DNA from: Actinokineospora diospyrosa
GTDB lineage: Bacteria > Actinomycetota > Actinomycetes > Mycobacteriales > Pseudonocardiaceae
DNA length: 64,000 bases
Assembly (NCBI RefSeq): GCF_024171925.1
Contig: NZ_JAMTCO010000009.1
Location: 152,705 to 216,704 of the forward strand
Reading direction: 5' to 3'
Under the pieces are notes generated by a model that worked only from the letters and a program-made list of their open reading frames with translations, searched no databases and had not been told where the DNA came from. Positions 46,241-64,000 of the stretch are shown here, one piece after another. Every line of letters starts with the position of its first letter. Within the stretch, counting starts at the first letter, position 1. The translations under genes and the position numbers were made by a program.

Positions 46241-46252
46241 TCGGATCACCCC
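46234..46252. terminator. Palindrome spanning both stop codons of convergent genes
   Basis: GGGGTGATCGGATCACCCC is a perfect inverted repeat with a single central base. It contains the stop codons of both the hydrolase and the oxidase. As RNA it can fold into a 7-bp hairpin and may end both transcripts. Confidence 0.5.
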
Positions 46253-47319
46253 AGCACCGACCGGTCCAGTTGGGCCGTCGTCGGGCGGCCGCACAACGCC
46301 ATGGCCTCGGCCAACTCCTCGCGCAGCAGGGTCAGCACGTGCTCGGCCCCCGCCGCGCCCGAGTGCGCCAAGCCCCACAGCACCGGCCTGCCCACCAGGA
46401 CCGCCGCCGCGCCGAGAGCGAGGGCTTTGAGCACGTCGGCCCCGGTGCGCACCCCGCCGTCGACCAGCACCGGCAGCCGTCCGGCGATCGCGGCCACCAC
46501 CTCGGCCAGCACGTCGGCGGTGGCCGCGACCCCGTCGAGCTGGCGACCGCCGTGGTTGGACACCACGATCGCGTCCACCTCGTGCTCGGCGGCCAGCCGC
46601 GCGTCTTCGGCGGTGAGAATTCCCTTGAGCACCAGCGGGAGTCGGGTGCGATCGCGAAGCCAGGCCAGATCGGCCCAGGTGATCGTCGGGTCGAACCGCT
46701 CCCGCGAGTGCCGCTCGATCGCCGACACCCCGGCCGCGGCGAGGTGGCTCTCGGCCATCAACTCCCTGCTCAGGTTCACCGCGCGCACGTGCGGGGGCAA
46801 CGTGAAACCGCTGCGCAGGTCCCGGTGCCGCCGCGCCACCCTGGGCGCGTCCACGGTCAGCACCAGCGCCCGGTACCCGGCCCGCTCCGCGCGGCCGACC
46901 AGCTCCAGCAGCGCCGGGCGGTCGCGCAGCCAGTACAGCTGCATCCACAGTGGACCCGTGGCGACCGCCGCCATCTCGGCCAGGTCGGTGCTGGCGAAGA
47001 TGCTGGCCACGAACAACGCGCCCGCGGCTCCTGCGGCCTTGACCGTGGCCAATTCCCCGTCCTCGTGCACCAACCTGTGGTATGCCATCGGCGCGACCCC
47101 CAGCGGTGCGGCCAGCGACGAACCAAGCAGGTCAACGCTCGTGTCGCAGGTCCCCACGTCCACCAACACCCGCGGTCGCAACCGGATCCGCTGGTAGGCG
47201 GCGGTGTTGGCGCGCAGTGTCCACTCCGCGCCGGACCCGCCGTCGAGGTAGCCGAGCACATCGCCCGCGAGGGTGGCTTTCGCGTGGTCGGCGTAGTCGC
47301 CGACGTGTAGTGGATTCAC
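46246..47319 (-). CDS. hmo: FMN-dependent alpha-hydroxyacid oxidase, 4-hydroxymandelate oxidase-like
   Basis: 357 residues, GTG start with AGGAG 8-9 bp before. Glycolate-oxidase-type TIM barrel: PLGVAPMAYHRL, LYWLRDRP, LVLTVDAPRVARRHRDLRSGF, LVLKGILTAEDA, the catalytic His in VVSNHGGRQLD and the phosphate loop VLVDGGVRTGADVLKALALGA. It would oxidise 4-hydroxymandelate to 4-hydroxybenzoylformate with O2, as Hmo does in glycopeptide clusters. The assignment is strengthened by a 4-hydroxymandelate synthase homologue at 54.2 kb; lactate or another hydroxyacid is possible on sequence alone. It is transcribed divergently from the main biosynthetic operon. Confidence 0.8.
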   Translation of the reverse strand: MNPLHVGDYADHAKATLAGDVLGYLDGGSGAEWTLRANTAAYQRIRLRPRVLVDVGTCDTSVDLLGSSLAAPLGVAPMAYHRLVHEDGELATVKAAGAAGALFVASIFASTDLAEMAAVATGPLWMQLYWLRDRPALLELVGRAERAGYRALVLTVDAPRVARRHRDLRSGFTLPPHVRAVNLSRELMAESHLAAAGVSAIERHSRERFDPTITWADLAWLRDRTRLPLVLKGILTAEDARLAAEHEVDAIVVSNHGGRQLDGVAATADVLAEVVAAIAGRLPVLVDGGVRTGADVLKALALGAAAVLVGRPVLWGLAHSGAAGAEHVLTLLREELAEAMALCGRPTTAQLDRSVLG

Positions 47320-47658
47320 GAGTGCACTCCTGGGCCGCGCCGCTACTCTGCGCCGTTCGGGGTATTGAGCGGGGCATATCCTGTCATCCGCTCACCACAA
47401 TTTCCAGCGTTTGGATCAGCTGGTCACCGACCGCGTTTCGGCCCCTTCTTTCGTGCGCTCCGCGTAGTCGGCGCCGAGCCCGATTCGCCTGTGCACACAG
47501 TGAGAACGCCTGGTAGTGGGCTTGTTGGCGCGACCGCGATTAGTCCTTTCGGGCGACCTTGACTCTCGTTGAGCCGGTATGCGATTGTTTCAGCCAGCCA
47601 GGGCGGCTAATGAACTCTCGCTACGGCGTTCGGCCTAGCAAACAATGTGAAGGAACCA
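47320..47658. other. Divergent promoter region of the biosynthetic cluster
   Basis: 339 bp, noticeably less GC-rich than the flanking genes, between the oxidase (leftward) and the first ligase (rightward). TTGACT at 47559-47564 is a possible -35 box for the rightward operon, with only a poor -10 (GATTGT, 47583-47588). No clear operator was seen. Confidence 0.45.
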
Positions 47659-49065
47659 ATGGCGGGCGTGGATCTTCCGCTGGTGAATGAGCCTGCGGTG
47701 AACCCGGAATGGGTGGATGACCTGCTGCTCGGCGGGCCGGACGCGACTGTGCGGCTGCGGCTCGATCGGCCGATCGACACCGCGGCGCTGCGCCGATCGG
47801 TCGCGCTGGCGGGGGACCGGTTGCGCGCCGAGGGGCTCGTCGCGGGTGGCACTGTCGCATTGCGACTGCCCCCCTCGCTGACCTACATCGCTTTCCTGCT
47901 CGCCGCCTGGCGGATCGGCGCGCAGGTCAGCCTGCTCGACCACCGGCTCACCCAGCACGAGGTGGACGGCGCGCTCGAGCGGATCGGTGCGCAGTACGTC
48001 GTGGACGCCCTGGAGAGCAAGGGCCACCGGCTGTGCGGCTACGCCGAGGTCGTCGCCCGGGTGTCCGCCCGGGAGGGTGGCCGTCCGGCCGGGACGGCGC
48101 ACGCGCTGGTGCAGTTCAGTTCCGGCTCGACCGGCGCGTCCAAGGTGATCGCCCGCACATCCGATGACCTGATCGCCGAACTCGCGCGCTACGACCGCCT
48201 CCCCGAGTTCCCCCGCGCCGGGGAACGGGTCGTGCTGCTGTCGTCGATCGTGCACGTGCTCGGCCTCGTCGGCGGTCTGCTCAACGCGCTGCACACCGGC
48301 GCGGAACTGGTGTTCCCGCGCAGGCTCACCGCCGAGGGCATCCTCGCCGCGGTCGCCGAGTCCGACCTGCCCACGACGATCATCGGCGTGCCGTTCCACG
48401 CCGAGCTGCTCACCTCGATCGCCGACCCCGCACCGCTTCCGCAGCTGCGCCGGATGATCGTCGCGGGCGAACTGGTCCGCCCCTCGGTGCCGACCAGGTT
48501 CCGCGAGACCTTCGGCGTCGCGCTGGGGACGATGTACGGGATGACCGAGCTCGGCGTCATCGCCACCGACCTCGACGGCACCCGGTGGCCCTCGGTCGAA
48601 CCGACCCACGGCATGGACCTGCGCGTCAGCGGCGGTGAACTGTGGATCGCGATGCCCGCCTCGCCCTACCTGGGCGCGCAGGACCCGTCCCGCTTCGTCG
48701 ACGGCTGGCTGTGCACCAAGGACGCCGCCGAACTCGACGCCGGTCTGCTGACCGTGCTGGGCCGGTTGGACTCGCAGGTCTCCATCGGCGGCCTCAAGGT
48801 CGACCTGACCGAGGTGGAGCAGGCGATCGCGGCCCTGCCCGCGGTCCGCGAAGCCGTTGTGCTGTACGACGGCGGGATCCAGGCCTACCTCAGCCTCACC
48901 GACGGCGCGACCGCGGAGCAGGTCCAGGCCGCGCTCACCGAGACCCTCGCGCCCTTCAAGCGCCCGCGCAGGCTGGTGGTGCTCCCGGCGCTGCCGCGCA
49001 CCACGACCGGCAAGGTCGTGCGGGCCACCGCCGCACTCGTCGCCGCGGAGGCCGCATCGCGGTAG
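47659..49065 (+). CDS. Acyl-adenylate-forming ligase 1 (ANL family)
   Basis: 468 residues from ATG 47659 (AAGGAA 4-5 bp upstream; GTG 47647 is possible but would overlap that site). AMP-forming motifs: FSSGSTGASKVI (P-loop), YGMTELG, WLCTKDAAEL, and the catalytic Lys in PRTTTGKVVR at the C-terminus. It is shorter than usual (~520), lacking part of the N-terminal subdomain. It activates a carboxylic acid as adenylate and loads it onto CoA or an ACP; the two carrier proteins encoded next make ACP loading likely. The substrate is unknown; an aromatic acid from the hydroxymandelate branch is a reasonable guess. Confidence 0.88.
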   Translation: MAGVDLPLVNEPAVNPEWVDDLLLGGPDATVRLRLDRPIDTAALRRSVALAGDRLRAEGLVAGGTVALRLPPSLTYIAFLLAAWRIGAQVSLLDHRLTQHEVDGALERIGAQYVVDALESKGHRLCGYAEVVARVSAREGGRPAGTAHALVQFSSGSTGASKVIARTSDDLIAELARYDRLPEFPRAGERVVLLSSIVHVLGLVGGLLNALHTGAELVFPRRLTAEGILAAVAESDLPTTIIGVPFHAELLTSIADPAPLPQLRRMIVAGELVRPSVPTRFRETFGVALGTMYGMTELGVIATDLDGTRWPSVEPTHGMDLRVSGGELWIAMPASPYLGAQDPSRFVDGWLCTKDAAELDAGLLTVLGRLDSQVSIGGLKVDLTEVEQAIAALPAVREAVVLYDGGIQAYLSLTDGATAEQVQAALTETLAPFKRPRRLVVLPALPRTTTGKVVRATAALVAAEAASR

Positions 49066-49150
49066 CCCCATGGTGACGGCCGCACAGCAATGGCCAGTGG
49101 TACCCCGGTCCGGGCAACACCGACGGCAATCGCACAGATAGGAGGCAGCG

Positions 49151-49420
49151 ATGCAGGACCAGCTCCGCGAGTTCGTGCTCGACACGTTGCGGGAGATGAA
49201 CTACGACGTCAGCGAGGTCACCGAGGACACCGACCTCGGGCCTGCCGGACTCGACCTGGAGTCCTTGGCACTGGCCGACCTGGCGGTGCAGATCGAGGAC
49301 AAGTACCAGATCAAGTTCGGTGACGACGACATGGAGTCGCTCGCGCTGATGAACCTGGGGGAGTTCGTCGACGCCCTCGCCGACCGCCTCTCGGTGGCCC
49401 CGGCCGACACCGCGTCCTGA
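49151..49420 (+). CDS. Acyl carrier protein 1
   Basis: 89 residues, preceded by AGGAGG. The phosphopantetheine Ser is Ser38 in GLDLESLALADL. The acidic helix II and IEDKYQIKFGDDD continuation are typical of ACPs. The DLESL form (Glu before Ser) is unusual but known. First of two adjacent carrier genes. Confidence 0.9.
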   Translation: MQDQLREFVLDTLREMNYDVSEVTEDTDLGPAGLDLESLALADLAVQIEDKYQIKFGDDDMESLALMNLGEFVDALADRLSVAPADTAS

Positions 49421-49421
49421 G

Positions 49422-49691
49422 ATGGCCGCACCCGTACCACCGGAACCGACCGGTGGCGTACCCGATCGCGCCCAGGTGGTCGCGATGCTCAGCGGTTTCG
49501 GCGACCGCGGCACCGGCGAGGTCGGCGAGACCCTCGACTCCCTGGAGCTGACCTGGCTCATCGCCCAGGTCGAACAGCGCTACGGCGTCGAACTGGAACT
49601 GTCCGACGAGGTGTTCGCGGGCATGGCCACGGTCACCGGCGCGGTGGACACGCTGGCCAGGGTGCTGCCCGGGGCACAGGGCCATGGCTGA
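49422..49691 (+). CDS. Acyl carrier protein 2
   Basis: 89 residues, ATG one base after the previous stop. Carrier Ser40 in ETLDSLELTWL, followed by VEQRYGVELEL. It has a Pro-rich first 12 residues and a shortened helix I. Its end overlaps the ketosynthase gene by 8 bp. Confidence 0.87.
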   Translation: MAAPVPPEPTGGVPDRAQVVAMLSGFGDRGTGEVGETLDSLELTWLIAQVEQRYGVELELSDEVFAGMATVTGAVDTLARVLPGAQGHG

Positions 49692-50727
49692 TCGCCGCGT
49701 CCTGATCGCCGCCGCCGCGGCGCGCACCGCGTTCGGCGACCACGCCCGGCTACTGGCCGAGGGGTTCGCCGGGGTACCGGCGTTCGCCCCGGTCACCCGG
49801 TTCAGCACCGCGGGCCGCCGCACCCAGCACGCCGCGACGTTGCCCGGTTCTCCTTCCCTGGTCGACGAACTGGTGCGGGTCGTCGACCAGGTCTACCCCG
49901 GTGACCGCGCATCGGTTCCACTGCTGCTCGCCGCGCACGCGGACGCGAGCAACCGCGCCTTGGCCGAGGAGGTGGCGGCCAGGACCGGGGTGCGTGACGT
50001 GCCCCGGGTCTACACCGGGGCTTGCGTGGCGGCGACCTCGGCGGTGGCCGACGCGGCGACGATGATCGCCACCGGTCAGGCCGACCGGGTGCTGGTCGCC
50101 GCCGGGTACCTGGTGGAGCCCTCGACCTTCGCGCTGTTCGACGCCGGGAGGGCGTTGGCGCGCGACGGTCGGGTCCGGCCGTTCAGCGCGGGCAGGCAGG
50201 GGATGTTGCTCGGCGACGGGGTGGCCGCGGTGCTGTTGACGGCCGAGTCCGCGCGCCCGGTGGCGAGGTTGGTGGGCTGGGCCCGGTCGGGTGACGCCTA
50301 CCACGTGTGCAAGCCACGCCCGGACGGGACGGGCCTGGCCCGGGCGATCCGGGGTGCGGTGGACCGGGCCGGGGTGTCCACAACAGACATCGACTACGTC
50401 AACGCGAACGGCACCGGCACCGGCTTCAACGACGCCGCCGAGGTCGCCGCGCTGCGCTTGGCCGGTCTGGACCGGGTGCCGGTGAGTTCCACGAAGTCCG
50501 TGCACGGCCACGCCCTGGAGGCTTCCGGGCTGGTCGAGCTGGTGGTCACCGCGTTGGCCATGCGAGCGGGCAGGCTGCCGGTGAACTCGGGTTTCCTCGG
50601 TGCCGACCCGGACTGCGCGGTGGAGTTGGTCGTCGACGGGCCGCGGCGAGCGCGCGTGGGGTACGCGCTGACCGTGAACTCGGCGTTCGGTGGCGCCAAC
50701 ACCGCACTGCTGCTGGAGGCCGCGTGA
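49684..50727 (+). CDS. Ketosynthase-fold protein 1, one catalytic His replaced by Asn
   Basis: 347 residues, about 60 shorter than FabF. The nucleophile is Cys114 in TGACVAATSAV. The first His (normally NAHGTGT) is Asn242 in VNANGTGTGF. The second is His276 in KSVHGHALEASG. The Lys before it is kept. With Cys and one His it may still accept and transfer acyl groups, but decarboxylation would be impaired (inference). Pairs naturally with the short ketosynthase-like protein encoded next (overlap 4 bp). Confidence 0.85.
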   Translation: MADRRVLIAAAAARTAFGDHARLLAEGFAGVPAFAPVTRFSTAGRRTQHAATLPGSPSLVDELVRVVDQVYPGDRASVPLLLAAHADASNRALAEEVAARTGVRDVPRVYTGACVAATSAVADAATMIATGQADRVLVAAGYLVEPSTFALFDAGRALARDGRVRPFSAGRQGMLLGDGVAAVLLTAESARPVARLVGWARSGDAYHVCKPRPDGTGLARAIRGAVDRAGVSTTDIDYVNANGTGTGFNDAAEVAALRLAGLDRVPVSSTKSVHGHALEASGLVELVVTALAMRAGRLPVNSGFLGADPDCAVELVVDGPRRARVGYALTVNSAFGGANTALLLEAA

Positions 50728-51221
50728 ACGCCACCGTCGTCCCGGTCGTGGCCTCGGCCAGCTGGCCGGAGTCCGATGTGGACACGATCACACCGGTGAC
50801 CGGGTTCGTCCTGTCCACCTTCAACCCGCTGGTGGCCGAGGTTGCGGCGCGATGCTTGGCCGGGCAGCAGCCCGGTGCGCGGACCGCGATCGTGCTCGCC
50901 AGCGCGACCGGTGACCGCACCAGTGCCGACGCCGTCGCCGAGGCGGTGGCGTCGGGCACCCGGGTGGCACCGCTGTTGTTCTTCCAGTCCAACCCGAACG
51001 CGGTGCTCGGGCACGTCGCCGCGCGGTGGGGGCTGACCGGCCCGGTGGTGTGCACCAGCCCCACCGGGGACCCGATGGCGGACGCTTTGGCGTGCGCCGA
51101 GCTGCTCTTCGCCGCGGGCGAGGCGGACGCGGCACTGGTGATCACCGTCGAGTTGGCGGACGACCGAGGCGGAACCGACCGGGCGGACGCCGTCCTGGTC
51201 ACGGCGAGGGAGCGGGCATGA
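50724..51221 (+). CDS. Short ketosynthase-like protein (chain-length-factor type)
   Basis: 165 residues, GTG start overlapping the previous stop. It corresponds only to the N-terminal half of a ketosynthase (LASATGDRTSADA, FFQSNPNAVLGHVAARWGL, DALACAELLFAAGEADAALV). At the active-site position it has CTSPTGDP rather than a TACA-type Cys word. This resembles the small ketosynthase-like chain length factors of aryl polyene clusters. It likely forms a heterodimer with ketosynthase 1 or 2. Confidence 0.72.
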   Translation: MNATVVPVVASASWPESDVDTITPVTGFVLSTFNPLVAEVAARCLAGQQPGARTAIVLASATGDRTSADAVAEAVASGTRVAPLLFFQSNPNAVLGHVAARWGLTGPVVCTSPTGDPMADALACAELLFAAGEADAALVITVELADDRGGTDRADAVLVTARERA

Positions 51222-52831
51222 CAGCCACGAGCATCCGGGCCACGATGGCGCGCGATCCGGAACTGGGCGCGGGCAGCGTGCTGAGCACCCTGGTGGCGCT
51301 GGGCGGCGATCTCGACCGGCCCGCGTTCACCTTCGACACCGCCGTCGAGGACATCCCCGCCTGGACCGCGCTCACCGTGCGCCAGCTCGACGAACGGGTG
51401 CGCGCCAGGGCCGCCGCGCTGCACGCGGTCGGCATCGGCAGGCGCGACCCGGTCGCGGTCACCGCCACCAGCGCGGCCGACAACATCCTCACCTTCCTCG
51501 CCCTGGCCAGGCTCGGCGCCATCCCGGCGCTCATCAACGCCAAGGTGACACCGGAGATCACCGCGCTCTACATCAACCGCCTCGGCGCGGTGGGTGTCCT
51601 CGCCGACGCCGCCCGCCGCGAAGCGCTCGCCCCGCACGGGCTGAAGTTGCTTCCCCCCATCGAGGACCTGGGCCACGCCGACCCGGCGGACGCCCCCGAG
51701 CCCTACCGCTTCTTCCGCGACGACCCGGTCGCGATCACGCACTCCTCCGGCACCACCGGTGTCCCGAAAGCCGTGCTGCACTCGCACTCCAGCCTCTTCG
51801 CCGCCAACCGGCACCGGCTGCGGATGCCCAAGGCGCAGGGGACCGACCGCATCCTGTCCGCGCTCCCGGCCCCGCACGCCGCCACCCTCATCGCGCTCAA
51901 CCTGGCGTTGGCCAGCGAGAGCCAGCTGCTCGCGCTGTCGGCCCAGACCGGGTCGAGCGTGGTCGAGGCCATCGAGCGGTGGCGCCCCAGCGGCGTGCTC
52001 GGGTTCGCCGCTACCTGGTCGGAGATGGCCAAGACCGACCTGCGCGGCCGCGACCTCGACTCGGTCGCCCTGTGGTGGAACACCGGTGACTGCGCGCACG
52101 AGGCGCACATCCGCAGGCTGATCTCCCTCGGCTACCGCGAGGTGTCCACAAAGGAAGGCCGGGTCCGCAAGCCCGGTTCGGCGTTCATCGACGGCCTCGG
52201 CTCGAGCGAGATGGGTCACTCGCACTTCTACATCACGCACACCACCGACACCAACCGGTACGGCCGCTGCATCGGCCGCCCGCACACCTTCGCCGAACCC
52301 GTCGTGCTCGATCCCGACGGCAACGAGCTGCCACCGGGTGCGGTGGGGGAGTTGGGCACGAAGTCGCCGACGCTCTCACTCGGGTACTGGAACGACTCGG
52401 TCACCACGTACCGCACCCGCGTCCGCGGCTACTTCCTCACCGGGGACCTCGTCTACCGCGACGAAGAGGGTTACTTCTACCACGTGGACCGGCTTGTCGA
52501 CTCCGTCGACCTCGGCGGTGGCAAGCGCTTGCACACGGCGCTGTCGGAGGAGCGGGTCCTCAACGCCTGCCCGGATGTCGCCGACTGCACCGTCGTCGCC
52601 GTTCGCGCCGACAGCGGCGTCGTCACCGACGTGCTGCTCCAACTCGACGCCGCGGGTGACCCCAACGCCGATCGCGTCGAGGCGATCCGCGCGGCCCTCG
52701 GCCCGGACGTCGCCGCTACGCTGCGCGAGGTCGTGGTCGTCGACGAGGACCGGATCCCGTTGGGCCCCACCGGCAAGGTCCGCAAGGTCGCGCTGCGCGA
52801 GCAGTACCTGCAGAGCCTGGGCGCGCGGTGA
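51218..52831 (+). CDS. Acyl-adenylate-forming ligase 2 (ANL family)
   Basis: 537 residues, ATGA overlap with the previous gene. THSSGTTGVPKAVLHSH (P-loop), GLGSSEMGHS, YFLTGDLVYRDEEGYFYHVD and the catalytic Lys in LGPTGKVRKVAL are all present. Full length for the family. It is more like fatty-acyl/aryl-CoA ligases than NRPS adenylation domains. A second ligase suggests that two different acids enter the pathway. Confidence 0.9.
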   Translation: MTATSIRATMARDPELGAGSVLSTLVALGGDLDRPAFTFDTAVEDIPAWTALTVRQLDERVRARAAALHAVGIGRRDPVAVTATSAADNILTFLALARLGAIPALINAKVTPEITALYINRLGAVGVLADAARREALAPHGLKLLPPIEDLGHADPADAPEPYRFFRDDPVAITHSSGTTGVPKAVLHSHSSLFAANRHRLRMPKAQGTDRILSALPAPHAATLIALNLALASESQLLALSAQTGSSVVEAIERWRPSGVLGFAATWSEMAKTDLRGRDLDSVALWWNTGDCAHEAHIRRLISLGYREVSTKEGRVRKPGSAFIDGLGSSEMGHSHFYITHTTDTNRYGRCIGRPHTFAEPVVLDPDGNELPPGAVGELGTKSPTLSLGYWNDSVTTYRTRVRGYFLTGDLVYRDEEGYFYHVDRLVDSVDLGGGKRLHTALSEERVLNACPDVADCTVVAVRADSGVVTDVLLQLDAAGDPNADRVEAIRAALGPDVAATLREVVVVDEDRIPLGPTGKVRKVALREQYLQSLGAR

Positions 52832-54105
52832 GACCGGCCGCGGCGATCACCGGGATCGGGCTGGTGACCCCGCTGGGTCGCAAGCCCGCCGAGGTCTTCG
52901 ACGCCCTGTGCGTCGGCCGCTCCGGTGTGGTCTCCCCACCCGAGGGGCACCCGCTCGCCGGGCTGCTCGACGCTGCGGGCATCGCGCCGGACATCGACCC
53001 GGCCGAGGTCATGGACGCCAAGTCCGCCAAGGCCGTCGACCGGTTCGTGCTGCAGGCCATGGCCGCCGCCGATGACGCGCTGGCCGACGCCCGGATCACC
53101 GTGGGCACCGACGTCGACCCGGAGCGGGTCGCGGTCGTCGTCTCCACCGGTGGCGCGGGGCTGGAGACCTACGAGCATTTCGCAGCGCAGCGCTGGGAAC
53201 GCGGCCGCGCCAAGGTGAGCCCGTACCTGCTGCCCGGGATGTTGGCCAACATGGCGGCCGCCCGGATCGCGATCAAGCACGGCATCCGCGGCCACAGCGC
53301 GTGCATCGCCACCGCTTGCGCCGCCGGGGCCCAGTCCATCGCCGAGGCGCTGCGGCTCATCCGCGGCGGCGAGGCGGACGTGGTCGTGTGCGGTGGCAGC
53401 GATACCGCCCTGCACCCGACAGTGGCGTCCGCGTTCGCCAACGCCTGGGCCCTCGCTCGCGGCTGGGGCGCCGACCCGACGGCGGCGAGCAGGCCGTTCG
53501 ACAAGCGCCGCAACGGGTTCGTGCTCGGGGAGGGCGCGGGCGTGCTGGTCGTCGAACGCGCCGATTTCGCTGACGCGCGCGGCGTACCCGCCTATGCTGG
53601 ACTCCTCGGGTGGTCGGTCAGCACCGACGCGCACCACCCGACCACCCCGCGCCCGGACGGCTCCGGTGCCGCGGCCGTCATGCGCCGCGCCACCGCTGAC
53701 GCGGGCCTCACACCATCTGATGTGGACTACATCAACGCGCACGGCACGTCGACACCACTCGGCGACGCGGCGGAAGCCGCCGCGGTGCGCGCGGTGTTCG
53801 GTGACGACAGCCCTGCTGTCAGCTCCATCAAGGCGCTCACCGGACACATGCTCGGCGGCTCCGGTGCCGTCGAGGCCGCCGTGACCGCGCTGTCGGTCGC
53901 GGGCGGCGTCCTGCCCCCGACGCACAACCTCGACGACCCCGACCCGGACTGCGCGCTCGACCACGTGCGCGGCGCCCCGCGCCTCGGACCGGTGCGCGCG
54001 GCCCTGTCCAACTCCTTCGCCTTCGGCGGCCACAACGTCAGCCTCCTGATCGGCGCGCCCACGACCCGGCTGACCCGCGCCACCCCACCCGCTGACCCTC
54101 ACTGA
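52828..54105 (+). CDS. FabF-type ketosynthase 2 with intact catalytic triad
   Basis: 425 residues, GTGA overlap. Cys164 in IATACAAGAQS, His305 in INAHGTSTPLGD and His340 in KALTGHMLGGSG give the full Cys-His-His set. It should carry out decarboxylative condensation on ACP-bound substrates. It is the only fully canonical elongating ketosynthase in the cluster. No ketoreductase or dehydratase accompanies it, so intermediates may stay as beta-keto thioesters or be reduced by host fatty-acid enzymes. Confidence 0.94.
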   Translation: MRPAAAITGIGLVTPLGRKPAEVFDALCVGRSGVVSPPEGHPLAGLLDAAGIAPDIDPAEVMDAKSAKAVDRFVLQAMAAADDALADARITVGTDVDPERVAVVVSTGGAGLETYEHFAAQRWERGRAKVSPYLLPGMLANMAAARIAIKHGIRGHSACIATACAAGAQSIAEALRLIRGGEADVVVCGGSDTALHPTVASAFANAWALARGWGADPTAASRPFDKRRNGFVLGEGAGVLVVERADFADARGVPAYAGLLGWSVSTDAHHPTTPRPDGSGAAAVMRRATADAGLTPSDVDYINAHGTSTPLGDAAEAAAVRAVFGDDSPAVSSIKALTGHMLGGSGAVEAAVTALSVAGGVLPPTHNLDDPDPDCALDHVRGAPRLGPVRAALSNSFAFGGHNVSLLIGAPTTRLTRATPPADPH

Positions 54106-56087: not shown

Positions 56088-56102
56088 AACTTCGCACCCT
56101 GC

Positions 56103-56379: not shown

Positions 56380-56506
56380 TCCCCCCACCTGCGCACCCCC
56401 ACCTGCGCACCCCCACGCCCAGCCCACACCCCAAGCGCCGTCCCGACCCAGCCCAGGACACAGCCCGGACCTAGCGCCGCCCCCGACACACCCCCCCAAC
56501 GCCAAG

Positions 56507-56536
56507 AAGGCCCCCGGGAGCAGTCCCGGGGGCCTT
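56507..56536. terminator. Terminator after the ABC transporter operon
   Basis: Perfect 13-bp stem (AAGGCCCCCGGGA with TCCCGGGGGCCTT) and a GCAG loop, 16 bp beyond the permease stop. Flanking A and T residues make it work in both directions. Confidence 0.88.
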
Positions 56537-56552
56537 CCAGCACAGCAGTCGG

Positions 56553-57317: not shown

Positions 57318-57326
57318 CTCGGACTC

Positions 57327-58280
57327 CTACTTGTCCCGCAGCGAGCGGCCGGTCTTGATCAGGAACACGTCGTCCAGGCTGGGCCGGTGCAGCTCGACGG
57401 TGTCGAAGTGGATCTCGCCGGCGTCCAGCACCCGCATGATCTGCGGCATCGCGGTGGTGCCGTCGTCGACGTAGAGGCGCAGGCCGTCCTCCCCGAGCTC
57501 CAGCTTGCGCACGTAGTCGTGGCCGTCGAGCAGCTCGGCAGCCTTGGGCCCGCTCCCGTTGAGGCCAACGGTCACCACGTCACCGGCCACGCCGTGCTTG
57601 AGCTCGGTCGGGGTGCCCAGCGCGACGATCTCACCGTGGTCGATGATCGCGATCCGGTCGCACAGCGCGTCGGCCTCCTCCAGGTAGTGCGTGGTGAGGA
57701 AGACCGTCATGCCCGCGTCGCGCAGCCTGCGCACCTCGTCCCACAGGTGCGCCCGCGACTGCGGGTCCAGCCCGGTGGTCGGCTCGTCGAGGAACAGCAC
57801 CTTGGGCTCGTGGATGATGCCCATCGCGATGTCCACCCGGCGGCGCTGACCACCCGAGTAGGTGCGGCACTGCCGGTCGGCGAACTCGGTCAGCTCGAAG
57901 GCGGCCAGCGCCTGCTCCGCCCGCTCGATCGCCTCGGCCTTGCCGATGCCGTACATCCTGGCCTGCAGCACCAGCTCCTCGCGGGCGGTGACCTCGTCGG
58001 TCGTGGTGCCGCCCTGGGGGACGTAGCCGACCTTGGTGCGCACCGCCCCGGGGTCCTTGCGCAGGTCGGCGCCCGCGATGACCGCCTCCCCGTCGTCGGG
58101 TTCGAGCAGCGTGCACAGGATGCGCGCGGTGGTCGTCTTGCCCGCGCCGTTGGGGCCGAGGAAGCCGAAGATCTCCCCCTCCGCCACCGACAGGTCGACG
58201 CCGCGGACGGCCTCGACTGTGCGGGTCTTGCGCCGTTTGCCCAGCGTGAAGGACTTGCGCAGTCCCTTGACCTCGATCAT
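57327..58280 (-). CDS. Daunorubicin-resistance-type ABC transporter ATPase (DrrA-like)
   Basis: 317 residues from ATG 58278-58280. Walker A GPNGAGKTT, signature YSGGQRRRVDIAMGI, Walker B VLFLDEPTTGLDP, and the switch His in FLTTHYLEEADAL. The C-terminal DrrA extension (RPSLDDVFLIKTGRSLRD) is present. The ATGA overlap with the glycosyltransferase gene ties export to product glycosylation. Confidence 0.94.
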   Translation of the reverse strand: MIEVKGLRKSFTLGKRRKTRTVEAVRGVDLSVAEGEIFGFLGPNGAGKTTTARILCTLLEPDDGEAVIAGADLRKDPGAVRTKVGYVPQGGTTTDEVTAREELVLQARMYGIGKAEAIERAEQALAAFELTEFADRQCRTYSGGQRRRVDIAMGIIHEPKVLFLDEPTTGLDPQSRAHLWDEVRRLRDAGMTVFLTTHYLEEADALCDRIAIIDHGEIVALGTPTELKHGVAGDVVTVGLNGSGPKAAELLDGHDYVRKLELGEDGLRLYVDDGTTAMPQIMRVLDAGEIHFDTVELHRPSLDDVFLIKTGRSLRDK

Positions 58281-59455
58281 GACGTGCTCCTGCTCAGGCC
58301 GGCGGGGGCCGGCGACCGGGTGGTCAGCTCCAGCAGCGCCGCCGCGGCGGCGTCCGCTCCGCCCGCCTCGGCGAACGAGGCGCTGACCGTGGCGGCGGCG
58401 GCCCGGTGGCCCGGGTCGCCGAGGACGTGGGTGGTGGCGGCGCGCAGCTGGGCCGCGTCCGCCCTGGCGAACCCGACCCGCACGCCTGCACCGGCCGCGA
58501 CCACGCCGTTGGCGTTGATCGGCTGGTCGTGCCGGATCGGCGCGACCACCAGCGGGACGCCGTGGGCCAGCGACTCGCAGACGGTGTTGAGGCCGCCGTG
58601 CGAGACGACCAGGTCCATCCGCGGCAGCAGTGCCAGCATCGGCACCCTGGTGCGGGCGATCAGGTGTGGCGGTAGGTCGGGCAGGGTGTCCGGTGGGGCG
58701 ATGAAGACGGCTTGCAGCCGGTCGCCCAGGGGCGCCAGCGCGGCGGCGGTCTCGCGCAGGAAGCGGGTCGACACGTCGTCGGCGAGGGTGCCCACGGACA
58801 CCAGGACGTGCTGTTTGTCCTGGTCCAGCCAGTCGAACGGGAAATCGGGCTGACCGTGGCGCTTCGCCAGGATCGGGCCGACGCCCAGGACGTCCTCCGG
58901 CAGCGCGCCGGTGAGCGCCCGCGTGGTGCACGCCAGCACCAGGTGCGGTGAGTAGCGCAGGTCGAAGTACTCCTCGGCGGGCATCCCGGCCTTGTCCCAC
59001 AGGTACCGCAGCCGACCGCGCAGCCACTCGTGCACCCGGGGCAGGTCGGCCAGCGGCTCGCCGAGCTCCATCGTCGAGCAGGCCAGCGTCGCCCAGGTGA
59101 CCCCGAGCCGGTGCGCCACTATCGCCCCCGCGGGGGAGTGCTGGTCGACCACCACGACGTCCGGGCGCACCGCCTCGACGGCCTTCTCGACCGCGGGGAG
59201 GCTGAACCGGGCGAACGGCACGATGAACCGGTCCCACACCGAGCGCACCGCGGCCAGCCCGTGGTCCGACTGCGGCCGGTGCAGCCGCGTGCCGGTCGGG
59301 TGGATCACCGCGTCCGGGCCCAGCATCGGGCGCAGGTGCAGCTCAGGGCCGCACCAGGCGACCTCGTGGCCGCGCTCGACCAGCGCCGCCGCCAGCCCGA
59401 TGGTGGGGTTGACGTGGCCCGCCAGCGGGGGGACGACGAACAGGAAGCGGCTCAC
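58277..59455 (-). CDS. GT1 (MGT/YjiC-type) UDP- or dNDP-sugar glycosyltransferase
   Basis: 392 residues, GTG start overlapping the carrier-protein stop by 4 bp. N-terminal acceptor domain (FVVPPLAGHVNPTIGLAAAL) and C-terminal donor-binding motif VVSHGGLNTVCESLAHGVPL with PIRHDQPINA. It should glycosylate a phenol or hydroxyl, such as the hydroxyphenyl group supplied by the mandelate branch, for resistance or as a final step. The window has no deoxysugar genes, so a common sugar such as glucose or GlcNAc is likely. Confidence 0.92.
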   Translation of the reverse strand: MSRFLFVVPPLAGHVNPTIGLAAALVERGHEVAWCGPELHLRPMLGPDAVIHPTGTRLHRPQSDHGLAAVRSVWDRFIVPFARFSLPAVEKAVEAVRPDVVVVDQHSPAGAIVAHRLGVTWATLACSTMELGEPLADLPRVHEWLRGRLRYLWDKAGMPAEEYFDLRYSPHLVLACTTRALTGALPEDVLGVGPILAKRHGQPDFPFDWLDQDKQHVLVSVGTLADDVSTRFLRETAAALAPLGDRLQAVFIAPPDTLPDLPPHLIARTRVPMLALLPRMDLVVSHGGLNTVCESLAHGVPLVVAPIRHDQPINANGVVAAGAGVRVGFARADAAQLRAATTHVLGDPGHRAAAATVSASFAEAGGADAAAAALLELTTRSPAPAGLSRSTS

Positions 59456-59718
59456 CGCGCCCGCCCCGCCACGTAGTCGACGACCTGCCCGACGGTGAAC
59501 CCGGTGATCTCGTCCAGCTCCAGCCCGCGCACGTGCCGCGCCAGTTCCACAGCGGGGCCGTAGCGCCCGCTCAGCGCGGCGTCGACCCGGGTCAGGTCCA
59601 GGCTGTCGAAACGCAGATCCCCTTCGAGTGTGGCGTTCGGCGTAATTGCGGGCGGGCATCCGCCGCACGGGCCGACGACCTCTCGGAGTATTCCCGAGAC
59701 TTCCTCGAATAGCGCCAC
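59452..59718 (-). CDS. Acyl carrier protein 3
   Basis: 88 residues from GTG 59716-59718, which has GGAGGGG 6 bp upstream (the frame extends to 59781 but without a site). Carrier Ser39 in RFDSLDLTRVD, then GLELDEITGFTVGQVVDYV. The stretch GPCGGCPP is atypical. First gene of the leftward ACP-glycosyltransferase-exporter operon, so the glycosyltransferase may act on an ACP-bound intermediate (inference). Confidence 0.82.
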   Translation of the reverse strand: MALFEEVSGILREVVGPCGGCPPAITPNATLEGDLRFDSLDLTRVDAALSGRYGPAVELARHVRGLELDEITGFTVGQVVDYVAGRAR

Positions 59719-59821
59719 CGCGCCCCTCCAAACACCGCCCCAGTTGCGCGCCAAGGTACCGCACCCCGCCCGGTCCGTCACGAAGTATCTCGACGCGGGT
59801 GAATGGTCGGCAGGTGGAGTA

Positions 59822-59850
59822 TTGACACTTTCCGACCGGCTCCCAACAAT
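59822..59850 (+). promoter_or_regulatory. Probable promoter of the condensation-ketosynthase operon
   Basis: Consensus -35 TTGACA (59822-59827), a 17-bp spacer and AACAAT (59845-59850) as -10, ending 38 bp before the ATG at 59889. The position in the divergent gap fits. Confidence 0.55.
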
Positions 59851-59888
59851 GCCCGCTAGAAGCTCAATGCGGCGGGGAGTAAAGCGGG

Positions 59889-61247
59889 ATGACGGAGAAG
59901 ATCCTCGTCGATTTCCACGGGACCGGCTCCGGGGTCGGTGACCTCACCTGGGGCCAGCGCACCGTGTGGCGCACGGTGGTCAAGACCGGGCACTCGGAGA
60001 CCATGGGCGGCATCACGGCGCTGCCCCCGGGGACGACGGTCGAGCAGTCGGCGATGGTGCTGCGCTACGTGATGGGCAGGCACCAGTCGCTGCGCACCCG
60101 GCTGGTGTTCGACAAGCCCGACGGTGGTCCGCGCCAACAGGTGCACACCTCGGGGCAGGTCGCCCTGGCGGTCGTCGACGCGGGCGCCGAGGACCCGGCG
60201 GAGGTCGCCGAGCGGGTCAAGGCCGAGTACGAGGACGCGGACTTCGACTACGCCCAGGAGTGGCCGGTGCGGATGGCCGTGGTCACCAAGGACGGCGAGC
60301 CGACGCACTCGGTCGCGGTCTACAGCCACCTGGCCATCGACGCGCACGGCCTGGACGCGCTGGTGTCCGATCTGGCCACAATGGACTGGGCGACCGGTGA
60401 GCCGACGCTGCCGCTGACCGCGACCCAGCCGCTGGAGCTGGCCGAGCAGCAGCGCAAACCCAACGTGCTGCGCAACAGCGAGGCCGCGCTGCGCTACTGG
60501 GAGCGGGTGCTGCGCACCGTCTCGGCCAAGCGCGTCGAGGGCGAGTCAGACGACCACCGGTCCCCGCGCTGGGGCGACCTGTCGCTGCGGTCCCCGGCGT
60601 CCTGGCTGGCGACCAAGGCGATCGCCGCGCGGCTGGGCACCGACACCTCGCCGGTGCTGCTCGCCGGCTACGCGTGCGCGCTGGCCAGGACCGTGGGCAA
60701 CAACCCGGTCGCGGTGCAGATCGCGGTGAACAACCGGTTCCGCCAGTCGCTGGTGGGGTCGGTCAGCACCATGGCCCAGACCTGCCCGCTGATGGTCGAC
60801 CTCGCCGACGCCGGGTTCGACGAGGCGGTGCACCGGGCCAGGCAGGCCACCATGGTCACCTACAAGTACGCCTACTACGACCCCGAGAAGCGCGCCGCCA
60901 TGGTCGACCGGGTCGCCGAGGAGCTGGGCGGGCGGGTCGAGATGGACACCTACTTCAACGACCGCCGCCCGCCCGGGCGCGACGAACACGAACTGGTGGC
61001 GCCCCCGGCTGAGGAGATCCTGGCCGCCCGCGGGTCGAGCACCCACGAGTGGGTCATGTGGACCGATGTGGACAGTCCGCTGCTCTACCTCGACGTGGAC
61101 GCCGAGCCGGACGCGATCGTGTTCACCCTCACCGGCGACACGACCCGGGTCGCGCCCAAGTCCATGCTCGACCTGCTCACCGAGATCGAGACCGTGCTGG
61201 TCGACGCCGCGCTCGACCCGGGCGCCACGACGGGCATCCGGTCGTGA
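59889..61247 (+). CDS. Stand-alone condensation-domain-like acyltransferase
   Basis: 452 residues, NRPS condensation/PapA-type fold without other domains. The active-site motif HHxxxDG is present as SHLAIDA: Ser146, His147 and Asp151 in YSHLAIDAHG, so the first His is Ser and the Gly is Ala. The catalytic second His and the structural Asp remain. It probably joins an ACP-bound acyl group to an amine or alcohol on another carrier, or to a free acceptor, making an amide or ester. The downstream ketosynthase gene overlaps by 4 bp. Confidence 0.83.
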   Translation: MTEKILVDFHGTGSGVGDLTWGQRTVWRTVVKTGHSETMGGITALPPGTTVEQSAMVLRYVMGRHQSLRTRLVFDKPDGGPRQQVHTSGQVALAVVDAGAEDPAEVAERVKAEYEDADFDYAQEWPVRMAVVTKDGEPTHSVAVYSHLAIDAHGLDALVSDLATMDWATGEPTLPLTATQPLELAEQQRKPNVLRNSEAALRYWERVLRTVSAKRVEGESDDHRSPRWGDLSLRSPASWLATKAIAARLGTDTSPVLLAGYACALARTVGNNPVAVQIAVNNRFRQSLVGSVSTMAQTCPLMVDLADAGFDEAVHRARQATMVTYKYAYYDPEKRAAMVDRVAEELGGRVEMDTYFNDRRPPGRDEHELVAPPAEEILAARGSSTHEWVMWTDVDSPLLYLDVDAEPDAIVFTLTGDTTRVAPKSMLDLLTEIETVLVDAALDPGATTGIRS

Positions 61248-62176
61248 CCGCGCTGCGCGAGGTGGCCGCGTACCTGCCGCCGGACCGGGTCCCGCTCGAC
61301 GAGCTGGCACCCCGGTTCGGGCTCACCGAGCGGCAGGTCCGGTTGTTCCGCCGCTTCCACGGCCTCGACCAGGTGTGCCTCGACACCGGCGGCACCCTGC
61401 TGGACCTGCTCGTGGGCGCGACCGACCGGCTGGAGACGTTGCGCGGCCAGGAATCGCGGGTCCGCTACGTCATCTACGCCCGCGGCATGCCGGTCGCCGT
61501 GCCCTACCCGCGCAACCCGTTGCGCGAGTTGTGCGGCAAGCTCGGGTTGGACCACGCGCTGACCTTCACCGTGACCCACCAGGCGTGCGCCACGGGTCTG
61601 CTCGCGCTGGACGTGGCGGGCAGGCTGCTCGCCGCCGACCCGGACCCCGAGGCGTTGGCGCTGATCGTGTCCGGGGAGAAGACCTTCACCCCGGACGCGA
61701 TGCTGGTGCCCGACACCGCCGTGTTCGGCGAGGGTGCCGCGGCCGCGCTGGTCGGCGCCGACGGTCCGCGCGACCGGCTGCTGGCCTACGCCTCGAGCGT
61801 GCGCGGCGACTTCGACGGCAGGCTGATCATCGACCCGGAGTTGGCCGCCCGGTTCCAGTACGAGTACCCGGAGCTGCTGACCGGGGTGCTGCTCGCCGCG
61901 GTCGAGCGGGCCGGGCTCACCCTCGACGACATCGCGTTGGTGTTGCCGCACAACGTGAACTCGGTGTCGTGGCGGCGGGTCGCCAAACGGATCGGGTACC
62001 CGGTGGAGCAGGTGCTGCTCGACAACGTGGCGGTCACCGGGCACAGCTTCGCCGCGGACCCGTTCCTCAACTACCGCACCGCCCTGGACCGGGGGCGGTT
62101 GCGGCCGGGGGACCGGTACCTGGTCGGCGCCGCCGGGTTGGGCGCGACGTTCTCCGCGATGGTCTTCGAGCACTAG
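61244..62176 (+). CDS. KAS III-type ketosynthase with a Cys-His-His site
   Basis: 310 residues, GTG start. Cys115 in THQACATGLLAL and His236 in LPHNVNSVSW are conserved. The third residue, Asn in the usual GN..S word, is His267 in VTGHSFAADP. Loss of Asn is found in KAS III relatives that transfer acyl groups rather than condense them (family knowledge), so this may be an acyl shuttle or offloading enzyme. It lies between the condensation protein and carrier protein 4, the obvious partners. Confidence 0.87.
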   Translation: MTALREVAAYLPPDRVPLDELAPRFGLTERQVRLFRRFHGLDQVCLDTGGTLLDLLVGATDRLETLRGQESRVRYVIYARGMPVAVPYPRNPLRELCGKLGLDHALTFTVTHQACATGLLALDVAGRLLAADPDPEALALIVSGEKTFTPDAMLVPDTAVFGEGAAAALVGADGPRDRLLAYASSVRGDFDGRLIIDPELAARFQYEYPELLTGVLLAAVERAGLTLDDIALVLPHNVNSVSWRRVAKRIGYPVEQVLLDNVAVTGHSFAADPFLNYRTALDRGRLRPGDRYLVGAAGLGATFSAMVFEH

Positions 62177-62193
62177 CGTGATGGGAGGGCCCC

Positions 62194-62529
62194 GTGGGGT
62201 CTGTTGAGGTTGCTGAAGTTGAGGCTGTTGGTGCTGCTGACGCCGGGGCGGTCGGCGCCGGAGTGGACACCGAGTTGCTCGGGCGGGTCACCGACAGCAT
62301 GGCGGAGCTGCTGCCGCGGGTGCTCAAGCGCGAGGTCACCGGGCTGAGCGCGGACACCAAGCTGTTCACCGAGCTGGGGTTGAGCTCGGCGAGCACGCTG
62401 GAGCTGCTGCTGGAGCTCGAGGACGAGCTGGAGATCCAGATCGACGTCGAGGAGATCGACCAGAACGACCTGGAGACCGTCGGCACCCTCGCGGCCTACA
62501 TCGCCGCCCACACCGTCGCGGACGAGTGA
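62194..62529 (+). CDS. Acyl carrier protein 4 with altered DSL motif
   Basis: 111 residues, GTG start with GGGAGGG before it. The first ~22 residues are Val/Ala/Glu-rich. LFTELGLSSASTLELLLELE aligns with the usual LGLDSLxxVEL: the Asp before the carrier Ser is Ser64, and the carrier Ser is Ser65. The acidic recognition helix is intact. It overlaps the next gene by 1-4 bp. Confidence 0.85.
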   Translation: MGSVEVAEVEAVGAADAGAVGAGVDTELLGRVTDSMAELLPRVLKREVTGLSADTKLFTELGLSSASTLELLLELEDELEIQIDVEEIDQNDLETVGTLAAYIAAHTVADE

Positions 62530-63371
62530 TGTTCACCTCCGGCGCCCCCGGCGCGGCCACCGGGCCGGCCCGGCTGGTCGCCGCGCACGCCAGGGTGTTC
62601 GCCGAGACCTCGCCCACCGCGCTGGACCCGGCGTTGCGCCCGTTCCTGGCCGACCTGGTCCGCCCGTACGGCAACGCTCTGCGCGAGGACCTGCTCGAGG
62701 AGGGCGTCGGGCACTCGTTCGGTGAGATGGCCGAGGCGATGCTGCCCTCGATCGTCGGACCGGACGAACCGGTCGACCTGCTGGTGCTCGCCTTCGCCAT
62801 GCACGACCTGCGCCTGGGGCGGGCCACGGCCTGCTACCTGAGCGACCGGTGCTCGGGCAGGCCCATGGCGTTCGCGGTGTGCGACCAGGGCAGCGGCGCG
62901 GCGTTCACCGCGCTCCGGCTCACCGAGGCGTACTTGGGTTCAGGGGAGTGTTCGCGGGCGCTGGTGTTCATCGTCGAGCAGTCCGCGTTGCACTACGAAC
63001 TCCAAGAGCCCGCACCGGTTCCCGATCGCCACACCGCCGTCGCCCTGCGGTTGGAGCAGGAGGGTCGCCGGCTCGGCCTGCGCCAGCACACCGGCGTCGA
63101 CGCGCAGCGCGTCCCCGGCCTGCTGCGCTCGTCCCTGGCCGGGAACGACGCCCCGGTGATCGCGTCCGCGCGGTTGGCCGAGGTGGCCCCCGGCGTGGCG
63201 ACCGTGGTGGCCGACGCGGGGCAGCCCTACACCGGGATCTGGTGGGAGCTGGCGCAAGGCGGCCACGAGGGCCCGGTGGTCCTCGCCGACTACGAACCCG
63301 CACACGGTCTACTGTGTATATCCACTGTGGATCAACTCACCCTGGCGCGACCGGCACCGGCGGTGGCATGA
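62529..63371 (+). CDS. Thiolase-fold, KAS III-like protein with degenerate site
   Basis: 280 residues from ATG 62529 (GTG 62526 is the alternative). Residues ~85-150 follow a KAS III N-terminal half: LVLAFAMHDLRLGRATACYL then FAVCDQGSGAAFTALRLTEAYL, with Cys118 where the nucleophile belongs. The second half is short and lacks clear His and Asn words. It may bind an acyl-ACP without condensing, or partner the full KAS III encoded upstream. Overlaps the PPTase gene by 4 bp. Confidence 0.68.
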   Translation: MFTSGAPGAATGPARLVAAHARVFAETSPTALDPALRPFLADLVRPYGNALREDLLEEGVGHSFGEMAEAMLPSIVGPDEPVDLLVLAFAMHDLRLGRATACYLSDRCSGRPMAFAVCDQGSGAAFTALRLTEAYLGSGECSRALVFIVEQSALHYELQEPAPVPDRHTAVALRLEQEGRRLGLRQHTGVDAQRVPGLLRSSLAGNDAPVIASARLAEVAPGVATVVADAGQPYTGIWWELAQGGHEGPVVLADYEPAHGLLCISTVDQLTLARPAPAVA

Positions 63372-64000
63372 TGGACACGGTCAGCGTCTGGCTCGTCGAT
63401 TCGGTTCTCCCGCAAGGGTTCCTCGACGAGCTGCACGGCTACCTCGACGCCCGCGAGCGGGAGCGGGCCGGGGAGCTGGACCCGCCGCGGCGGCGCGAGT
63501 ACGTCGCGGCGCACGGCGCGGCCCGGGTGCTCACCGGGCGGGCGCTCGGGATCAGCCCCGACCGGGTGCGCTTCACGATCGGGCGGCACGGCAAACCCGA
63601 GGTCGACGGCCTGCGGATGAGCCTGTCCAAGTCCGAGGGGTTGGCGATGGTCGCCTGCACCGCCGAGCGGGCGGTGGGGGTCGACCTGCAGCGCGTCGAC
63701 GCGGGCATGGACGCGGCGCGCACCGCGCGCAGGTTCTACCCGGGCGAGGAGGCCGAGCACGTGGCCGACTGCCCGGTCCGGTTCACCGATCTGCTCGCGC
63801 GCAAAGAGGCGTGCGTGAAGGCGGCGGGCGGACGGCTGTTCCCCGGTTTGCGGTTGCCGGTGCACGGGCGCCGCGTGGTCCGCCAGGCCGACGGGCCCTA
63901 CCGGGTGCGGGACCTGCCCGCGCCGAGCGGCTACGCGGCGGCGGTGGCGCTGGCGGGCGAGGACGACTACCAGGTGCGCGAGCACCTCTGGCCAGGACAG
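63368..64000 (+). CDS. 4'-Phosphopantetheinyl transferase, Sfp type (3' end outside the window)
   Basis: At least 211 residues; the frame is still open at the right edge but is near the usual length (~225). The magnesium-binding word reads GVDLQRVD (usual GxDxE, so Glu is Gln). ARKEACVKAAGG matches the WxxKEAxxKxxG helix. The N-terminal RRREYVAAHGAARVL and GRHGKPEV words are typical. It installs the phosphopantetheine arm on the four carrier proteins of this cluster. ATG 63371 is an equally possible start. Confidence 0.9.
   Translation, partial: MMDTVSVWLVDSVLPQGFLDELHGYLDARERERAGELDPPRRREYVAAHGAARVLTGRALGISPDRVRFTIGRHGKPEVDGLRMSLSKSEGLAMVACTAERAVGVDLQRVDAGMDAARTARRFYPGEEAEHVADCPVRFTDLLARKEACVKAAGGRLFPGLRLPVHGRRVVRQADGPYRVRDLPAPSGYAAAVALAGEDDYQVREHLWPGQ

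Follow-up and report, generated by a model that had tools for sequence, protein, structure and literature searches.

An HmaS/diazotase-type gene cluster of Actinokineospora diospyrosa, a variant of the ava/cma kind

The window analysed here is a stretch of 64,000 nucleotides from the 8.1-Mb genome of Actinokineospora diospyrosa (contig NZ_JAMTCO010000009.1, positions 152,705 to 216,704; C9:152705-216704), and its last part carries a gene cluster in which homologues of 4-hydroxymandelate synthase (HmaS) and of the oxidase Hmo occur together with acyl carrier proteins (ACPs), ketosynthases (KSs), stand-alone condensation proteins and two adenylate-forming enzymes of the ANL type (ANL1 and ANL2). 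The cluster is real, coherent and conserved. In window coordinates its left edge is at about 45317 (or 46246) and its right edge at about 71634, the right part lying beyond the window end, and it is a variant of the avenalumic/p-coumaric acid (ava/cma) kind of cluster rather than a new kind. According to the part of the source available, ava/cma clusters combine a highly reducing type II polyketide synthase (PKS) with an ATP-dependent diazotase (PMC10777205). A first-pass annotation had seen here one coherent cluster in which an HmaS/Hmo-like route meets free ACP, KS and condensation proteins, which is borne out; its statement that the cluster matches nothing described is not supported, since the core is the ava/cma cassette in the same order.

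Gene content and order

The predicted genes are given below in window coordinates. Identities refer to a cma-type cluster of another genome (G019), which comprises genes I, H, A1-A6, B, A7, E and D, named after Table 1 of PMC10777205 in the part consulted. The last five entries belong to the right flank, of which 35 kb beyond the window were examined.

45317..46240, forward: g23, HSL-type alpha/beta hydrolase, LipP1 family, probable left edge (Abhydrolase_3; NCBIfam LipP1 356.7 bits, cut-off 350)
46246..47319, reverse: g24, Hmo-like flavin mononucleotide (FMN) 2-hydroxyacid oxidase (FMN_dh 438 bits)
47659..49065, forward: g25, ANL1, acyl-ACP ligase, AvaA1/CmaA1 counterpart (AMP-binding; 46% to G019 A1)
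49151..49420, forward: g26, ACP1, A2 counterpart (PP-binding; 41% to G019 A2)
49485..49691, forward: g27, ACP2, A3 counterpart (weak PP-binding, DSL motif; 41% over 41 aa to G019 A3)
49684..50727, forward: g28, KS, A4 counterpart, Cys-Asn-His (ketoacyl-synt domains; 42% to G019 A4)
50724..51221, forward: g29, half-length KS-fold chain length factor (CLF), A5 counterpart (Ketoacyl-synt_2, weak AmcG; 48% over 122 aa to G019 A5)
51218..52831, forward: g30, ANL2, diazotase-type adenylate-forming enzyme, AvaA6/CmaA6 counterpart (AvaA6 model, PDB matches, tree, motif)
52864..54105, forward: g31, FabF-type KS, Cys-His-His intact (NCBIfam FabF 420.8 bits)
54160..55179, forward: g32, HmaS (top PDB match 2r5v)
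55176..56087, forward: g33, PhyH-type Fe/2-oxoglutarate oxygenase (PF05721, E 3.9e-22)
56553..57317, reverse: g34, DrrB-like ABC-2 permease (by reading of the sequence; adjoins DrrA in Actinokineospora loci)
57327..58280, reverse: g35, DrrA-like ABC ATPase (TIGR01188 342.5 bits, cut-off 312)
58277..59455, reverse: g36, GT1 glycosyltransferase, MGT type (PF06722; TIGR01426 150 bits, under the cut-off of 260)
59452..59718, reverse: g37, ACP3 (weak PP-binding, DSL motif)
59889..61247, forward: g38, stand-alone condensation protein C1, HxxxDA motif (PF00668 58.4 bits)
61244..62176, forward: g39, KASIII-type protein, Cys-His-His (ACP_syn_III_C; FabH and CerJ PDB profile matches)
62263..62529, forward: g40, ACP4 (PP-binding 42 bits)
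62529..63371, forward: g41, KASIII-fold partner without conserved active-site Cys (AlphaFold model, KASIII folds)
63368..64000, running on to 64015 outside the window, forward: g42, phosphopantetheinyl transferase (PPTase; ACPS domain)
64012-64899: amino acid:ACP ligase (Bll0957-type)
64883-66955: E1 alpha and E1 beta of pyruvate dehydrogenase type
66952-68358: second condensation protein C2 (HxxxD motif)
about 68483-70300: g47, CreE-like (a longer reading frame than the initial gene call)
70309-71634: g48, CreD-like

The forward operon reads ANL1-ACP-ACP-KS-CLF-ANL2-FabF-HmaS-PhyH and the reverse operon ACP-GT1-DrrA-DrrB; a third block runs C1-KASIII-ACP-g41-PPTase-amino acid:ACP ligase-E1 alpha-E1 beta-C2 and is followed by the CreE-like and CreD-like genes. 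Outside the window lie E1, the amino acid:ACP ligase and the nitrite genes; an aminotransferase, with which the hydroxyphenylglycine route would be complete, is found in relatives and on another contig. Gene order is the same in eight further Actinokineospora genomes over the stretches covered, with the hydrolase and the aminotransferase varying at the left; A. spheciospongiae is without CreE/CreD after C2, and the genes after CreD differ between the genomes, where covered.

The first-pass annotation had set the cluster apart from glycopeptide/nocardicin clusters by the lack of a modular nonribosomal peptide synthetase (NRPS), and from aryl polyene clusters by the lack of ketoreductase and dehydratase, in agreement with the genes scanned here. 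No modular NRPS or PKS turned up when eight long genes of the window and its right flank were scanned (AAA, kinase/SpoIIE, DUF5682, NACHT and TPR proteins, one single-domain condensation protein and a 1616-aa protein without Pfam match), nor is a ketoreductase or dehydratase among the families found in the scanned cluster proteins, a scan that covered all but g34. In a homology search, no name giving a specific function was present among the matches listed (120 of 2057 proteins).

The ava/cma-type core and the hydroxyphenylglycine genes

Of 181 confirmed loci with an ANL2 relative the best 80 were sampled, several of them from one genus, and these extend 10 kb from ANL2. Counts were made on the 67 loci longer than 19 kb (13 of the 80, of 19 kb or shorter, being excluded), and ANL2, as the query, is counted by construction. 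ACP1 and ANL2 occur in all 67, HmaS and PhyH in 66, FabF and ANL1 in 65, KS in 55, a g23-type hydrolase in 53, Hmo and E1 alpha in 49, HpgT in 46, CreE in 8 and CreD in 6, and condensation proteins within 10 kb in just 13-14. The 10-kb reach means that absences of distant genes, including the Actinokineospora CreE/CreD, say little. Members of the family come from Actinokineospora, Kitasatospora, Streptomyces, Catellatospora, Kribbella, Dactylosporangium and other genera.

The likeness to ava/cma clusters consists in the order acyl-ACP ligase, ACP, ACP, KS, CLF and diazotase-type ANL enzyme and in the CreE/CreD homologues, with identities to the G019 proteins of 41-48% for the six core proteins (42% for ANL2 and A6), 54% for CreE (E) and 64% for CreD (D). 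The cluster differs in HmaS, the Hmo-like oxidase, an HpgT-like gene, PhyH, FabF and a KS without one catalytic His. Homologues of the 3-amino-4-hydroxybenzoic acid (3,4-AHBA) genes H and I (AvaH, AvaI) gave no blastp match in the pooled proteins and no tblastn match in the 80 loci (E 1e-4), nor a tblastn match in the window and right flank (E 0.01). The denitrifying enzyme A7 of G019 was equally unmatched in the pooled proteins and the 80 loci (E 1e-4) and in the window and right flank (E 0.01), gene G had no match in the HmaS loci, and B was matched solely in the second Actinokineospora clusters described below. The published ava/cma survey, in the part of it available, demanded the 3,4-AHBA synthase genes H and I and therefore could not list HmaS loci (PMC10777205).

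Two adenylate ligases had been recognised in the first-pass annotation and both are present; the second falls beside the nitrite-dependent AvaA6 and Tri17. ANL2 scores 473.5 bits against the AvaA6 model, the next model reaching 165.7, and its best PDB matches are 8ztz (390), Tri17 (307) and 9xb8 (267), followed by the next ligase at 100 or less; 8ztz is presumably CmaA6, as the distance between it and the row of G019 is zero. In a tree of 49 rows including four outgroup ligases (row L173, in which the N-terminal anchor is missing, was dropped), one supported branch splits 25 HmaS-associated rows from the AvaA6, Tri17 and 9xb8 rows. A GDxxH motif is common to all 45 HmaS-associated and AvaA6/Tri17/9xb8 rows and is missing from the corresponding place of the four outgroup ligases, the single outgroup match of the motif script, at a TGDLGH stretch, being read as a different place; 80/80 ANL2 proteins conserve the Asp of the motif, two His and the ANL Lys. 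ANL2 shares motif and tree neighbourhood with Tri17 (triacsin) and the CreM/AvaA6-type enzymes, and differs from them in belonging to a separate HmaS-associated group of rows. The accessible part of the source describes ANL diazotases, AzpL of alazopeptin being listed among them, that work on aniline, hydrazone and certain cyclic amine substrates (PMC11705231).

A route by way of 4-hydroxyphenylglycine (Hpg) is indicated by HmaS and the Hmo-like oxidase, to which relatives add an HpgT-like aminotransferase. The best PDB match of g32 is 2r5v (PCZA361.1, which we take to be HmaS) with 322 bits, the next, at 257, being an entry named 4-hydroxyphenylpyruvate dioxygenase (HPPD); g32 also exceeds the cut-off of the TIGR01263 HPPD model (317 against 277), because the two families are close. 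For g24 the class of FMN 2-hydroxyacid oxidase is clear and the putative substrate is assigned from context, with PDB scores of 299.5 bits for Hmo, 302.7 for glycolate oxidase and 342 for a lactate oxidase tandem chain, the last via two stretches. Common ground with the glycopeptide/nocardicin Hpg pathway lies in HmaS, nearest to the glycopeptide-cluster protein 2r5v, and in the HpgT-like gene of relatives, whereas the surrounding genes scanned here contain no modular NRPS for Hpg.

The HpgT-like gene stands between hydrolase and oxidase in four Actinokineospora species and is absent from that place in the window (46240 to 46246), where only 5 bp separate the two genes. Among 16 Actinokineospora genomes screened, nine hold the cluster, and an HpgT-like gene (E 1e-90) is present in all nine and in 0/7 of the others. 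The five without it in the main cluster (the window strain, A. inagensis, A. globicatena, A. terrae and genome G201) each hold a second ANL2, 61-62% identical to that of the window, with the sole HpgT-like gene at this threshold 8-10 kb away; the remaining four cluster genomes have no second ANL2 at that similarity.

In the window genome this second, paralogous HmaS/diazotase-type cluster is found on contig C18 (ANL2 at 82859-84466; L129-L130) and contains the HpgT-like gene, a 62% homologue of that of relatives, together with CreE, AvaB-like and P450 genes and an intact KS; its A. terrae counterpart has FabI-like and GMC-oxidoreductase-like genes (by reading). It has CreE and, in the stretch covered, no CreD, and the single CreD homologue of the genome at E 1e-60 is located in the main cluster. 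The two clusters look as if they share enzymes, and one evolutionary event may underlie the pattern. Elsewhere in the family, the Streptomyces locus L080 has an additional TyrA-like gene, and separate HmaS-, Hmo- and HpgT-like genes near P450-like genes in A. auranticolor (L135, G119:C4:82001-102000) possibly represent another Hpg user.

Condensing enzymes, nitrous acid genes and neighbouring genes

The KS-CLF pair (A4 and A5 homologues, in the same order as in G019) carries an altered catalytic His. In 55 relatives the A4-type KS has Cys-Asn-His in 42, Cys-His-Gln in 11 and Cys-His-His in 2, both from second Actinokineospora clusters, one catalytic histidine being missing in 53/55; Cys-His-His is also found in three ava A4 proteins and in the second KS of the window genome, and that of FabF is intact in 72/72. 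In the KS tree the intact rows group beside those of ava and a minimum of two changes is required, but convergent loss of the histidines is not claimed, the Cys-His-Gln rows being placed among Cys-Asn-His rows by weak forks that do not fix the order of the changes. Malonyl decarboxylation by a KS requires both histidines, so that an acyltransferase role is probable for the pair.

The KASIII-type protein g39 has Cys-His-His in 19/19 aligned rows and 18/18 relatives, the third residue of which we take to be a change from Asn to His. Its neighbour g41 has no Pfam or NCBIfam match, and a predicted kinship with KASIII is suggested by fold alone (AlphaFold pLDDT 88.8). None of 19 rows has a Cys at the place set against the KASIII Cys by a weak profile alignment, and 14 of them have one nearby. 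The arrangement recalls the PqsBC-type KASIII heterodimer, in which an active KASIII likewise adjoins a KASIII-fold protein without conserved Cys, but the likeness is a fold match that FabH, OleA and ChlB3 give equally well; a kinship of g41 with PqsB by sequence was rejected (profile comparison with g39, probability 2.5; PDB profile search, nothing below E 0.2). The amino acid:ACP ligase resembles Bll0957-type amino acid:[carrier protein] ligases (194-195 bits to these chains), with the difference that it is encoded inside a secondary-metabolite operon and, at 277.6 bits, falls under the NCBIfam cut-off of 357.

For the nitrous acid genes, g47 is 54% identical (321/595) to the solved L-Asp N-hydroxylase 8cp2 and keeps 10 of the eleven catalytic and arginine-cluster residues named in the part of PMC10404684 consulted, R597 being Ala. 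R13, N62, R266, R276, R409, R412, N413, R416 and R577 are kept in 18/18 further CreE rows, which represent 16 distinct genes picked via a GPRG motif that includes R13. The CreD-like g48, a putative nitrosuccinate lyase, reaches 409 bits with CreD 5xny and 261 with PcaB in the PDB. These residues and identities, with the best match of CreD, make it very probable that the window strain can make nitrous acid from within the cluster. The genes resemble those of the aspartate-nitrosuccinate (ANS) nitrous acid pathway (CreE/CreD of cremeomycin and others) in sequence identity and catalytic residues, the difference being that they adjoin here an Hpg-type route and not aminobenzoate genes.

In the genus screen CreD is present in 8/9 cluster genomes, where its start and that of ANL2 are 18.6-19.6 kb apart, and in 0/7 others, and CreE/CreD as chance neighbours is unlikely in the genus (p = 0.0007 by counting, ignoring phylogeny). 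CreE and CreD also stand beside HmaS-PhyH in 6 of the 67 long loci, all Streptomyces. That every relative encodes CreE/CreD is ruled out by the 24 of 39 genomes without CreD homologue discussed below. A DUF3050 haem-oxygenase-like protein of 238 aa is encoded in 31 of the 67 long loci, mostly beside E1 (L057-L127), in Kitasatospora-, Kribbella- and Catellatospora-type loci and in 0/8 of the loci with CreE; against its being a replacement for CreE/CreD, 19 loci with E1 hold neither.

To the right of the cluster, a third stand-alone condensation-domain protein (569 aa, 81664-83373; L005:1369-3078, reverse) is kept near the cluster in A. inagensis (G167), A. auranticolor (G119), A. sp. NBRC 105648 (G078) and A. 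globicatena (G203), with relatives inside the related loci of G172, G143 and G030; it is not claimed as a member, as regulatory and transport genes intervene. At the right edge lies a NACHT-type protein with an N-terminal NNH7 domain (window-equivalent 72043-74718; L004:10048-12723), to which large proteins near the same place in A. inagensis and A. sp. NBRC 105648 are related. In the left part of the window, 30246-39611 contains three genes, for the 1616-aa protein, a 376-aa AAA/MoxR-like protein (by reading) and a 755-aa protein with DUF5682 and VWA_CoxE. PADLOC gave no match for the NACHT-type protein or for these three genes.

Proposed pathway, alternatives and meaning

The preferred reading, with a probability of about 0.5, is that the cluster derives from the diazotising type II PKS cassette of the ava/cma type, is fed with Hpg and makes an N-N-bonded product. 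Sequence comparison supports the gene set, its order, the catalytic residues and the HmaS and CreE/CreD assignments; N-N formation, the product, the order of the steps and the substrates on which ANL1, ANL2, PhyH, E1 and the condensation proteins act we infer as follows. HmaS, Hmo and the HpgT-like aminotransferase would convert 4-hydroxyphenylpyruvate into Hpg, the aminotransferase being supplied in the window strain by the second cluster on the other contig. ANL1 would load an aryl starter onto an ACP, the KS-CLF pair, with one catalytic histidine lost, would act as acyltransferase and the intact FabF would do any C-C extension. CreE and CreD would produce nitrous acid from aspartate, and ANL2, which may use nitrous acid/nitrite, would adenylate nitrite and place it on an amine of the carrier-bound Hpg-derived intermediate, the resulting N-N bond ending as a diazo group or in a ring, for example a pyrazole. 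A second acyl unit would come from E1 alpha/beta, the KASIII protein with its KASIII-fold partner and ACP4. An amino acid would be added by the amino acid:ACP ligase together with the two condensation proteins, GT1 would glycosylate and DrrAB would export the product. The stricter and wider proposal that a nitrite-dependent ANL enzyme forms the N-N bond on the alpha-nitrogen of carrier-bound Hpg instead of an aromatic amine, with the KS-CLF pair turned from chain extension to acyl transfer, in a widespread actinobacterial class, is put forward tentatively and seems rather unlikely to hold in full.

Several observations weigh against the preferred reading. The 473.5 bits of ANL2 are far below the AvaA6 equivalog cut-off of 975, its nesting among proven diazotases is not seen, since long, distant outgroup branches do not fix the root, and no amino acid alpha-amine is among the substrates of the ANL diazotases described in the accessible part of PMC11705231. 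Hmo cannot be separated by score from other 2-hydroxyacid oxidases. CreD, with 547.5 bits, is under the NCBIfam cut-off of 650, which is reached in 0/13 related genomes, and A. spheciospongiae has the cluster without CreD; the association within the genus may go back to a small number of inherited events. Among 39 relatives whose locus is without CreE/CreD, 24 show no CreD genome-wide at E 1e-60 and 27 none above 300 bits, in a screen that recovered both CreE/CreD-positive loci included besides the 39. AzpL of alazopeptin is reportedly a possible precedent for an aliphatic amine substrate.

The strongest alternative, doubtful but with a real claim, is that ANL2 is related to the diazotases but works without nitrite, as an ordinary amide or acyl/aryl carrier-protein ligase, in which case the product would be an Hpg ketide/peptide hybrid without N-N bond and CreE/CreD would serve elsewhere. 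The 24 relatives lacking a CreD homologue, the unseen nesting and the ANL lysine kept throughout agree with it, as does the overlap of ANL2 identities to that of the window between Streptomyces loci with CreE/CreD (62-63%) and non-Actinokineospora loci without (56-72%), which suggests one function for all. Against it stand the fall in score from 267 bits for the last diazotase-type match to 100 for the first ordinary ANL one, the distribution of CreD in the genus and the CreE-CreD genes adjoining HmaS-PhyH in Streptomyces; moreover, absence of CreE/CreD is weak evidence, because 72 of the 134 surveyed ava/cma clusters are also without avaE/avaD, as given in the part of PMC10777205 used. Improbable is a diazotisation-dependent deamination as in ava/cma, with a diazo group made and then removed, leaving a product without N-N bond: cassette, order and nitrite genes are the same, but A7 of G019 has no counterpart in the sets searched and Hpg synthesis merely for deamination would be wasteful. 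Least probable is a plain trans-acting NRPS/PKS route to an N-acylated, glycosylated Hpg amide with a vestigial ava-like core, which would suit the two HxxxD condensation proteins, the amino acid:ACP ligase and the four ACPs and is at odds with the conservation of ANL1, ACP1, ANL2, FabF, HmaS and PhyH, each in 65-67 of the 67 long loci, against 13-14 for condensation proteins.

In the open-licence PubMed Central literature pairing hydroxymandelate or Hpg with diazo, ketosynthase or condensation, no such cluster was present among the matches listed, and the HmaS/diazotase-type class is apparently undescribed within the literature searched. If the preferred reading is true, an amino-acid-fed branch would be added to the diazotase clusters, one that could not be listed in a survey requiring 3,4-AHBA genes, as stated in the part of PMC10777205 available, and the gene set would allow to ask whether ANL diazotases take alpha-amines. 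The KS-CLF pairs with one catalytic histidine replaced, standing beside an intact FabF, would offer a natural series on the change from condensing pair to acyltransferase.

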